From positions 1 to 64,000 of the IMG/VR virus record IMGVR_UViG_3300021171_000005: 64,000 nt of DNA; one strand, 5' to 3'. The notes below the pieces were generated by a model. It saw only the letters and a list, made by a program, of their open reading frames with translations, was not told the origin of the DNA and did no database searches. Within the stretch, counting starts at the first letter, position 1, and each line of letters begins with the position of its first letter. This DNA is from a virus. Below, in pieces: positions 24,780 to 28,163 of this stretch. The position numbers and the translations under genes were made by a program.

Positions 24780-24871
24780 TTGCGCGGCAGGTTTCACCCG
24801 TTTCTGGAGAATAAAAGGGAACTAACCAGAGACACCTTGCCGCCTATAAGAGCGTGGAATAAGCCGCGCAA
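24780..24871 (+). ncRNA. Structured RNA element, copy A
   Basis: A 9-bp closing stem TTGCGCGGC (24780-24788) / GCCGCGCAA (24863-24871) surrounds AGGTTTCACC, an inner hairpin TTTCTGG / CCAGAGA and the segment CGCCTATAAGAGCGTGG. A second element at 26862-26970 has the same conserved segments and a differently sequenced closing stem. It lies in the 373-base gap upstream of the capsid gene. Confidence 0.6.
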
Positions 24872-25151
24872 AGTTTGCAGAAAGTTTGTGGGGGTGGATG
24901 TCAATCCGGACCGTTCAGGGCATGGGTCTGAACTATACCTCAGCTTGATAACGCCTCCACGCGGCGAAGTAGCTGATCCGGCATCCGCCCCGCAATTCAT
25001 AAAGTTTGCCTAGTCTGTCGGATTACAGACAAAGCCCCAACGCCCGCGTGAGGGATTCACCTTGGTCAACTCTTGACTGAGGACGGAACACTGGATCGGA
25101 TTATCCAGCATAGGCCGCCGCGCATAAGAGTAATCCAATTACAGGTGAAAT
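24872..25151 (+). other. Hairpin-rich leader before the capsid gene
   Basis: No gene is seen. Hairpins include GTTCAG / CTGAAC, GTCTGT-CGGATT-ACAGAC (25013-25030) and CTGGAT-CGGATT-ATCCAG (25091-25108); the last two share the loop CGGATT on different stems. This is probably part of one long structured leader or a separate noncoding RNA. Confidence 0.45.
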
Positions 25152-26198
25152 ATGGCATTTTCTCCGGCTGGCAATAACCAGTCAAATCTTCCGCAAAGTA
25201 CTGTGCGGTATTACGACAAAAAGTTCCGCGAGAACTTGAAAGCACAGACACCCTTCGTCGCTTGCTCGGAACGTCTCGACCTCCCGATGAAGAGTGGTAA
25301 TCAGTACAACATGTATATGTACGTTCCGCTGGCTGCGAATACCGCGCAGACCACGGAAGGTACGGTTGGCAGCTCCATCAGCGTCTCGGTTCTGAACACT
25401 TCCGCGACGATTGGTGAGTACGCGGATTACGCAAACTTCTCCAGCCTGAGCCTCGCAACCGCTATCGACAACACTGTCGAGAACGTTGCCCGCGAAATGG
25501 CGTATCGGCTGGGTGAATCGCTTTCCGCTCTCGTCCGCGCAACTGCGGATGGCGCGAACAGCGTTGATTCGTCCGTTCTGACGAAGCTCTCGGCGACCTC
25601 GACCACGAGCTTTACCACTCTGTCCCTGACCTATATCCGTAACGCCGTCCAGTCCTTGGCCGGTCGTTCGGTGCGGCCTTTCGACGAAGCGAGCAAGAAC
25701 TTCGCAGGTGTCATCCATCCCTTCGCTCTTGGCGACGTGCTGGCGGACAACTCGAACGACTCGCCAATCGATATCTTGAAGCGCACCCCGCAGGGTTATT
25801 CACGGTTGGATGAGATTATCTCGACCGATCTGACGGAAGTCATTGAGATTCCGACCTCCGGCGTGAGCTTCTTCCAGTCGAACCTCGTCACTACGACCTC
25901 GAACTATAACGACGGAACGCACGGCGCAGTTACCGGCCTGACCGCTCTCCGCACGTATATTTTTGGTCGGGATGGCATTTTTTCGATCAATTTGGGCGCG
26001 ATGGGCGACACCGGTTACGGCGATGGCGAATGGCGCAATATTAAATGCAACATTGTGCAAAATGCCGAGCCGTCAGTGGCGGATCCCTCGGGGTTAATTC
26101 CGGGGTGGACGAGCTACAGAGTTCACTTCACAACCAGCCTTGGGCCAGACACCACAATTAGGATACGCGAGATTGACGCAGCCAGCGCGATCTCCTAG
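25152..26198 (+). CDS. Major capsid protein, N4-gp56-like
   Basis: 348 residues. RYYDKKFRENLKAQTPF near the N-terminus, LPMKSGNQYNMYMYVPL and ATIGEYADYANFSSLSL match the pattern of the N4 gp56 family of capsid proteins (HK97 fold). Codons are regular and GC is slightly higher than in neighbouring genes, as expected for a highly expressed protein. Preceded by a long structured leader, which may control its level. Confidence 0.8.
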   Translation: MAFSPAGNNQSNLPQSTVRYYDKKFRENLKAQTPFVACSERLDLPMKSGNQYNMYMYVPLAANTAQTTEGTVGSSISVSVLNTSATIGEYADYANFSSLSLATAIDNTVENVAREMAYRLGESLSALVRATADGANSVDSSVLTKLSATSTTSFTTLSLTYIRNAVQSLAGRSVRPFDEASKNFAGVIHPFALGDVLADNSNDSPIDILKRTPQGYSRLDEIISTDLTEVIEIPTSGVSFFQSNLVTTTSNYNDGTHGAVTGLTALRTYIFGRDGIFSINLGAMGDTGYGDGEWRNIKCNIVQNAEPSVADPSGLIPGWTSYRVHFTTSLGPDTTIRIREIDAASAIS

Positions 26199-26295
26199 TA
26201 AATAAAGGATTTATAAATCCTGTATTTTACTATTACTAATTGAAACCTTTTCGTGTATAGTGGCATCCAATCGTAATGAAAGGATGCTACTATAC

Positions 26296-26826
26296 ATGAA
26301 ATTTCAAGATTTAACCGGCCAACGATTTAACATGCTGACGATTGAGAAATACGTTGGCAAAAACAAAACGGGACAATCTCTTTGGCAGTGTAAATGTGAT
26401 TGCGGGCAAGAGAAAATCGTAGCCGCTCATCACATGAAATCTAATAATGTTACAAGTTGCGGAAAGTGCGCTCGCGTCAAAAGCCACACCCGCCACGGAA
26501 TGTCCTATACAGTCGAATGGAATTCATTTCACGCAGCGAAGAAGCGCTGTAAGCCGGAACAAGCGGATCGATACCCAGATCATGCAGGTAAAGGCATAGA
26601 GTTTAGATTCAACAGTTTTGAGGAGTTTTACGAGGAAGTCGGGCCGCGCCCCGAGCCTAAATTTGCGTACTCTCTGGATCGCTGGCCGAATCCATACGGT
26701 CACTACGAAAAGGGCAATATTCGCTGGGCTACGAAAGAGCAACAAGCGTTAAATCGTGCTTGCGAATGGTGTTTGGCTCGTAATAATGTGCTAGAATTGT
26801 CAAAGGGATTAGCAAATATATCTTGA
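26296..26826 (+). CDS. HNH/AP2-type mobile-element-like protein
   Basis: 176 residues. FQDLTGQRFNMLTIEKYVGK, WQCKCDCGQEKIV with TSCGKC, then GPRPEPKFAYSLDRWPNPYG and NIRWATKEQQALNRA match a common phage family with a zinc N-domain and an HNH-like C-domain, seen as inserted genes. The ATG at 26296 has AAAGG about 12 nt upstream. It lies between the capsid gene and a strong promoter whose TTGACA overlaps its stop codon. Confidence 0.65.
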   Translation: MKFQDLTGQRFNMLTIEKYVGKNKTGQSLWQCKCDCGQEKIVAAHHMKSNNVTSCGKCARVKSHTRHGMSYTVEWNSFHAAKKRCKPEQADRYPDHAGKGIEFRFNSFEEFYEEVGPRPEPKFAYSLDRWPNPYGHYEKGNIRWATKEQQALNRACEWCLARNNVLELSKGLANIS

Positions 26827-26851
26827 CAAATGCTGTACGATAGCGTATAAT
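26823..26851 (+). promoter_or_regulatory. Near-perfect sigma70 promoter
   Basis: TTGACA (26823-26828), exactly 17 nt, TATAAT (26846-26851): both hexamers are consensus. The predicted start near 26858 is about 4 nt before the closing stem of the structured RNA, so the transcript begins with that element. Confidence 0.85.
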
Positions 26852-26861
26852 GTTTATATAA

Positions 26862-26970
26862 ATGCGGGGCGGGTTTCACCGGACCACCCGAGTAATTAGC
26901 GAACATGGGATGGGCGGCGACCGCCCGAGGTTCGTAGTACCGCCTGAAGAGCGTGGAATAGGCCCCGTAT
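26862..26970 (+). ncRNA. Structured RNA element, copy B
   Basis: Closing stem ATGCGGGGC (26862-26870) / GCCCCGTAT (26962-26970), 9 pairs with one G-U. Inside are GGGTTTCACC, a CGAAC / GTTCG stem, a GGGCGG-CGA-CCGCCC hairpin (26912-26926) and CGCCTGAAGAGCGTGG. Compared with copy A, the core is kept while stem bases change in pairs. It forms the 5' leader of the cytochrome mRNA, or a separate small RNA. A short CTCCC / GGGAG hairpin follows. Confidence 0.65.
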
Positions 26971-27062
26971 AAGCTCTCCCCTAGGGAGGTTGCGCGTCAC
27001 TCGTCTCTAAATTGCGGGGCGTCCGGAAACGGACAAATGAATCTGGCCAGAAAATGAGGAAT

Positions 27063-28163
27063 ATGAAGAAACTATTGTTATTCGTTCTCTTGATTCCGGG
27101 CCTAGGTTGCTATCATAAAGTTGCGCGGCCCGTTGTCAATGTCCCTCCGGGTCTTATCGAAGCACCGCAAGGATTTGATACCCTAACCAACGGTTTTGTC
27201 AGCCAGCAGCGGCATGATGACGACCGTGATCAGTTCGAAGAAGATGCTGTTCTTCCCCAGCTCGGCCCCGCTTACAATGCCCGAGCCTGCGCGGATTGCC
27301 ACGATACCCCGATTAGCGGGGCGGGCAGCCAAGTTTTCGAACACAGAATTGCCCCCGACGATAAGGATGATCCTATTGCGGCGGCTACACTTGTCCATGA
27401 CCGGACAACTGACCCCGAAGCCCAGCAGAAATCCGTATTTGATGCAATTAATGCTCTCCGGCCTTCTCTGAGTTTGATGGGTGATGGATTCGTCGAAGCT
27501 GTTCCGGATGCTGAGTTAATCGCAATTGCGGGGCAAAATGGCGGGCAATTCATTATGGTGCCCGTTCTTGAATCACCCGGAACGGTTCATGTGGGCCGAT
27601 TTGGAGTTAAAGATCAGCACGCGAGTCTTCTTAGTTTTGCGGGGGACGCGGATTTCAACGAAAAGGGCGTGGAAAATCGCCTCGTGAAAGCCACCACAAA
27701 TAGCAACGGAATCGAAGATCAGGAACCGACTTGCGGGGACGGCGGGGAAGATATCGATTGCTACGCCCGATTCATGCGGGCGTTGAAGGCCCCTTCGCGG
27801 GGACCATTGACCGCGCAAACCGCGCTTGGCGAGAAGATATTCGATGGCATTGGCTGCGTTAATTGCCATGTCGATACATTGTTTACTCCGAAGTATGTAT
27901 TTCATCCCTTTGGAGATTATCTCTTGCACGATGTCGGTACGGGCGATGGAATTCAACAGGGTGATGCTCCTGCCAACAAAGTTCGCACGGCTCCTTTGTG
28001 GGGATTGCGGGCTCGGGCAAGATTCCTTCATGATGGCCGGGCGTTTGACTTGCAGACCGCAATCGCCGCGCACGGTAACGAAGCCTCTTCGGCAAGTAGC
28101 AATTTTAAACAGCTTGACCCCACCGGAAAGCAGGCTCTGCTGGCGTTTCTGAATTCTTTGTAG
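27063..28163 (+). CDS. Di-haem oxidoreductase (DHOR/DUF1111-like) lipoprotein
   Basis: 366 residues. Signal segment KKLLLFVLLIPGLGC with a Cys at 16 suggests a lipoprotein, although the lipobox is not canonical. Two c-type haem motifs, CADCH (76-80) and CVNCH (265-269), and a FLHDGRA motif (321-327) mark the di-haem oxidoreductase family, relatives of MauG and bacterial di-haem peroxidases. It should be anchored in the envelope and matured by host cytochrome c machinery. The ATG at 27063 has GAGGA upstream. Its own promoter and structured leader precede it. I know of no such phage gene. Confidence 0.8.
   Translation: MKKLLLFVLLIPGLGCYHKVARPVVNVPPGLIEAPQGFDTLTNGFVSQQRHDDDRDQFEEDAVLPQLGPAYNARACADCHDTPISGAGSQVFEHRIAPDDKDDPIAAATLVHDRTTDPEAQQKSVFDAINALRPSLSLMGDGFVEAVPDAELIAIAGQNGGQFIMVPVLESPGTVHVGRFGVKDQHASLLSFAGDADFNEKGVENRLVKATTNSNGIEDQEPTCGDGGEDIDCYARFMRALKAPSRGPLTAQTALGEKIFDGIGCVNCHVDTLFTPKYVFHPFGDYLLHDVGTGDGIQQGDAPANKVRTAPLWGLRARARFLHDGRAFDLQTAIAAHGNEASSASSNFKQLDPTGKQALLAFLNSL

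Follow-up and report, generated by a model that had tools for sequence, protein, structure and literature searches.

A small RNA of soil phages with a predicted, covariation-supported pseudoknot, found next to tRNA genes more often than expected by chance

Two similar stretches of a soil virus genome are copies of a previously uncatalogued small RNA, about 90-135 nt long, that viruses of bacteria carry, often right beside their tRNA genes. The fold, which includes a pseudoknot, is supported by matching changes across 30 distinct members in 28 virus records, although its role for the virus is still unknown. Our best reading, which we consider somewhat more likely than not, is that this is a stand-alone, phage-borne structured noncoding RNA acting in trans. 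The window analyzed here is 64,000 nucleotides long and comprises bases 1-64000 of a 93,865-base IMG/VR virus record (IMGVR_UViG_3300021171_000005). The initial annotation, made from the sequence alone, proposed a conserved RNA with a covarying closing stem, not recognized as a known riboswitch or phage RNA, and suggested no function. All three parts of that proposal hold. However, it missed the pairing of two shared blocks and the pseudoknot around them, and the local setting of the two copies between capsid-region genes is not general, as most members lie elsewhere.

Copy A (24780-24871, + strand) starts 2 nt after the stop codon of a GNAT acetyltransferase gene and lies 280 nt before the major capsid gene (25152-26198; PHROG major head protein). 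Copy B (26862-26970, + strand) follows an HNH endonuclease gene and precedes a di-haem oxidoreductase-like gene (27060-28163; DHOR, putative peroxidase domain, PF06537), which has CxxCH motifs and is located in a phage late region. GGTTTCACC occurs at 24790-24798 and 26872-26880, and CGCCT-AT-AAGAGCGTGGAATA in copy A and CGCCT-G-AAGAGCGTGGAATA in copy B end at 24861 and 26960. The 9-bp closing stems are TTGCGCGGC/GCCGCGCAA and ATGCGGGGC/GCCCCGTAT, with one G-U pair in copy B. Only these two places in the window match the 13-mer exactly, and looser matches are at chance level. The folding z-score is -3.3 for copy A and -1.95 for copy B.

Chance is excluded by 28 further members with the same layout. 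A gapped pattern of the two shared blocks found 13 stretches in IMG/VR, and relaxed patterns added more. We built a covariance model, R1, from six members and used it both to filter the pattern hits and to search whole records. Complete members score 41-97 bits, while chance hits score below 18. Copy A scores 81.7 bits (E 1.8e-20 in its record) and copy B 50.7 bits (E 1.2e-11 in its record). Whole-record searches added a second copy in a relative, record G010, that no pattern had chosen at the time. This virus and G010 have two copies each. Pattern hits at the loci L016-L018 (including the Serratia and Bryobacter genomes), most of L132-L151 and many of L153-L197 are chance matches, as they lie in ORFs and/or lack the closing stem. 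Within the window, a possible third copy in the capsid gene leader (25052-25140, GGATTCACC...CATAAGAG) scored only 3.5 bits and was rejected. The stretch directly after copy A (24883-25009), closed by GGGGTGGATG/CATCCGCCCC, is also well folded (z -2.3 to -2.5), but at 6.3 bits it was rejected as a family member, and it has no homologues in isolate phages or, apart from near-identical records, in the loci fetched.

The structure was evaluated on an alignment of the 30 members with a structure that we specified. Standard pairs make up 97.1% of 683 cells, and there are 193 double-sided changes against 54.6 +/- 5.0 in shuffles. The covariation score is 0.736 against 0.150 +/- 0.015 in shuffles (0 of 500), and sliding the partners by 1-3 columns drops it to 0.06-0.10 (at most 0.102). 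The outer stem P1 (24780-24788 pairing with 24863-24871 in copy A) has changes on both sides at all nine pairs, with 98.1% of cells paired, and is longer in several members. Helix P2 is formed by the shared GGTTTCAC and GTGGAAT blocks, as UUUCAC/GUGGAA (24792-24797 with 24854-24859 in copy A; 26874-26879 with 26953-26958 in copy B). P2 is near-invariant, with 99.4% of cells paired: two one-sided changes in member L158 keep pairing (U.G to C-G), and there is one A.C mismatch in member L152. Most members were found with patterns that fix GGTTTCACC and parts of AAGAGCGTGGAA, so the invariance of these sequences is partly chosen; P1, P3 and the pseudoknot pair N:N' described below were not chosen that way. 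Hairpin P3 (24801-24832 in copy A, TTTCTGG...CCAGAGA) has core pairs that covary in all members, and an AGNGAA motif recurs on its 3′ side (AGGGAA at 24816-24821 in copy A). P3 may hold an extra hairpin in its loop (members L116, L206, L207 and others). In copy B, P3 (CCACCC/GGGATGG, with AGCGAA at 26898-26903) is followed by an extra GC-rich hairpin near 26913-26926, the two together occupying 26884-26926. This part of copy B was read from the sequence, as the model aligns it poorly.

The pseudoknot emerged from a scan of all column pairs that was not tied to the structure of the model. The scan picked out the nucleotide before GG and the one after CCGCC, which together with the near-invariant GG/CC make a 3-bp pseudoknot, N-G-G with C-C-N′, crossing P2. 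In copy A, A-G-G at 24789-24791 pairs with CCT at 24843-24845, within the conserved segment CCGCC-T-AT-AAGAGC (24840-24853). In copy B, GGG at 26871-26873 pairs with CCT at 26943-26945, with a G-U at the N position. N:N′ pairs in 27 of 30 members as aligned, a value that 0 of 200,000 permutations reach, or in 28 of 30 after correcting the spacer in member L210. The pairs occur as G-C, C-G, G-U, A-U and U-A. The pseudoknot was inferred on the first members, and all 13 members found later keep the pair, including one U-A. AAGAGC is present in 30 of 30 members and CCGCC is near-invariant. The nucleotide before the 3′ strand of P1 also correlates with the pseudoknot pair (columns 10, 111 and 128 of an earlier alignment, A6), a weak hint of a base triple.

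The RNA is optional cargo that comes and goes between close relatives. Copy A and the unrelated stretch after it are missing at the same place in G010, whose capsid protein is 97% identical and whose own RNA sits after a different HNH gene and a tRNA-His. DNA similarity between copy A and that RNA stops at the ends of P1 (24778-24870, 81%). The 5′ leader of the capsid gene (25002-25151) is 82% identical to G010 while the upstream scaffold/acetyltransferase region is 67%; this leader contains paired segments and may be a conserved regulatory leader. Relatives with 78-84% capsid protein identity mostly lack the RNA (0 of 31 further capsid-relative records have it), which argues against a riboswitch for the capsid gene. 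In several relatives (L083 1934-2496, and L076, L078, L079, L085-L087, L091, L094, L096 and L097) the major capsid gene is interrupted at residues near 23, 31 and 53 by insertions of about 560-660 nt, longer in some. The insertion in L083 encodes an HNH-like protein and has group-I-like ends by eye, but Rfam gives only a weak Intron_gpI match in L096 (15.5 bits, E 0.23) and none in L083.

Sporadic presence, with DNA similarity between copy A and the G010 RNA confined to the element, could also be explained by a mobile DNA hairpin or recombination site spread between phages. We consider this very unlikely. G-U pairs are kept and a pseudoknot covaries, which DNA would not need, and placement beside tRNAs is on the same strand in six of seven cases. 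A riboswitch or other leader controlling the gene immediately downstream is likewise unlikely. At L193, L196, L131 and L158 the RNA ends about 17-24 nt before a start codon with a Shine-Dalgarno sequence. However, the downstream features are unrelated (tRNAs, a convergent gene, capsid, SSB-like, peptidase-like and unknown genes), and no protein family recurs among the neighbors compared, except single pairs.

The RNA shows a preference for tRNA neighborhoods. Twelve of the 28 records hold tRNAs, and 7 of 13 placements in these records lie within 200 nt of a tRNA, 5 of them within 20 nt. Uniform placement would give P = 3e-10 for five within 20 nt, or 3e-5 if the chance is raised ten-fold to mimic placement only between genes. 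Four of the five records with a single tRNA gene have an RNA copy within 200 nt of it. The RNA is 6-7 nt from a tRNA in records G001, G010, G049 and G454, 4 nt in G459, 103 nt in G014 and 189 nt in G004, where the tRNA is on the other strand. In G001, G010 and G454 the order is tRNA CCA, a few nt, then P1. In G459 the RNA sits between two tRNA-Arg genes of a 32-gene array, and in G049 between a tRNA-like unit and tRNA-Tyr. At locus L191 (4155-4249), a tRNA-like unit with a long variable arm and an unusual anticodon loop (ATTTATAA), not called by ARAGORN, ends in CCA directly before the RNA. A 340-nt gap without a called gene between tRNA-Pro and tRNA-Gln of G001 (L119, 5780-6118) looks structured by eye and matches no Rfam family. 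The link to tRNAs is not obligatory: in G002, G447, G449, G451 and G456, and for the second G010 copy, the RNA is 2-50 kb from any tRNA, and 16 of 28 records show no tRNA at all. Six of the carrier phages (G049, G447, G449, G451, G456 and G459) have 20-32 tRNA genes, and four of these keep the RNA 2 kb or more from any tRNA.

How the RNA is made is inferred; there are no expression data. A perfect sigma-70-type promoter (TTGACA-17-TATAAT, 26823-26851, + strand, 12 of 12 consensus bases) ends 10 nt before copy B, with the expected start a few nt before P1. This is a consensus match only and not a mapped start. We infer that copy B is transcribed from this promoter, and that elsewhere the RNA is cut from longer transcripts by the enzymes that free the neighboring tRNAs, with P1 closing and protecting it. 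A cis-acting transcription antiterminator or transcript-stabilizing element, working in a manner similar to what is understood of the put RNA of phage HK022, is an alternative that we regard as improbable. The two copies in this phage flank the capsid-gene region, and many members lie in long untranslated or tRNA operons, which are prone to Rho termination. On the other hand, several members are at the downstream end of a unit, either after the last or only tRNA (G001, G010, G454) or facing a convergent gene (locus L122), and copy B has the promoter match described above.

A near-invariant helix under a pseudoknot, inside stems that are free to change, is what one expects if one conserved partner reads the core. 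We infer that the core is a docking surface for one conserved cell component, which the RNA binds in trans to favor the phage. Since the RNA travels with tRNA genes, that partner most likely belongs to translation or tRNA metabolism, but no partner is known and this identification is itself a doubtful guess. Binding of the tRNA elbow through interdigitated T-loops was not supported but is not settled: the nucleotide before AAGAG is U, G, A or C, against a T-loop, and no RNase P or T-box model matched copy A or member L006. A new self-cleaving ribozyme class that processes phage transcripts, with the pseudoknotted core as active site and cleavage near P1, is the strongest rival, though still an unlikely one. 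The short, pseudoknotted core inside freely varying stems, the lack of a fixed gene partner and the position tight against tRNA ends, where processing is useful, would all fit, and hammerhead and twister ribozymes appear to occur in phages as well. However, no Rfam ribozyme family matches, no conserved nucleotide outside P1 marks a cleavage site because the flanks differ between members, and a 6-bp helix held nearly invariant is more typical of a binding surface. It is possible, though less likely than not, that the RNA represents a new functional class, either a new self-cleaving ribozyme fold or an RNA excised from tRNA operons that binds ribosomes, a tRNA-processing enzyme or a tRNA-cleaving defense nuclease to protect phage translation.

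No Rfam family matches the RNA at any threshold used. None of the 4227 Rfam 15 covariance models matched the window at gathering score, the elements at E<=5 in 2.4 kb, or copy A and L006 alone at E<=10, and in 14 contexts only tRNAs were found. Neither ARAGORN nor Rfam called a tRNA inside any element. No isolate phage gave a blastn match covering 80% of the query, and no paper in the library searched holds the core sequence. Nothing was found in 396 genomes of the Bryobacter phylum (Acidobacteriota) or 398 of the Serratia phylum (Pseudomonadota), although the filters were strict and this is weak evidence. Structured RNA classes with a pseudoknotted near-invariant core are rare finds and often turn out to be ribozymes, riboswitches or docking RNAs.

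ROOL and GOLLD share the setting of this RNA, and its placement beside phage tRNA genes bears on the open question of why phages carry structured RNAs in their tRNA islands. ROOL RNA is a structured noncoding RNA of unknown function with pseudoknots, encoded in phages and prophages and often near tRNA islands (PMC12286853), but it is very large and nanocage-forming, whereas members of the present family are 89-136 nt and gave no sequence or covariance-model match to it in the loci scanned. GOLLD is a phage RNA of unknown function beside or around tRNAs, in Mycobacterium inside a 32-tRNA cluster with an HNH gene (PMC6582537, PMC12286853); many GOLLD RNAs exceed 800 nt, with a conserved 3′ region, and its model did not match here. 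Stable RNAs 1 and 2 of the phage T4 tRNA cluster are probably also small non-tRNA RNAs of unknown function made within a phage tRNA cluster. The HK022 put RNA and other processive antiterminators are, it seems, short phage RNAs with two copies per genome and a conserved core, but the distribution of the present RNA at 3′ ends of units and inside tRNA clusters does not fit a leader role. We regard this RNA as a new family, comparable in kind to ROOL and GOLLD but unrelated in sequence and far smaller, and do not file it under either.
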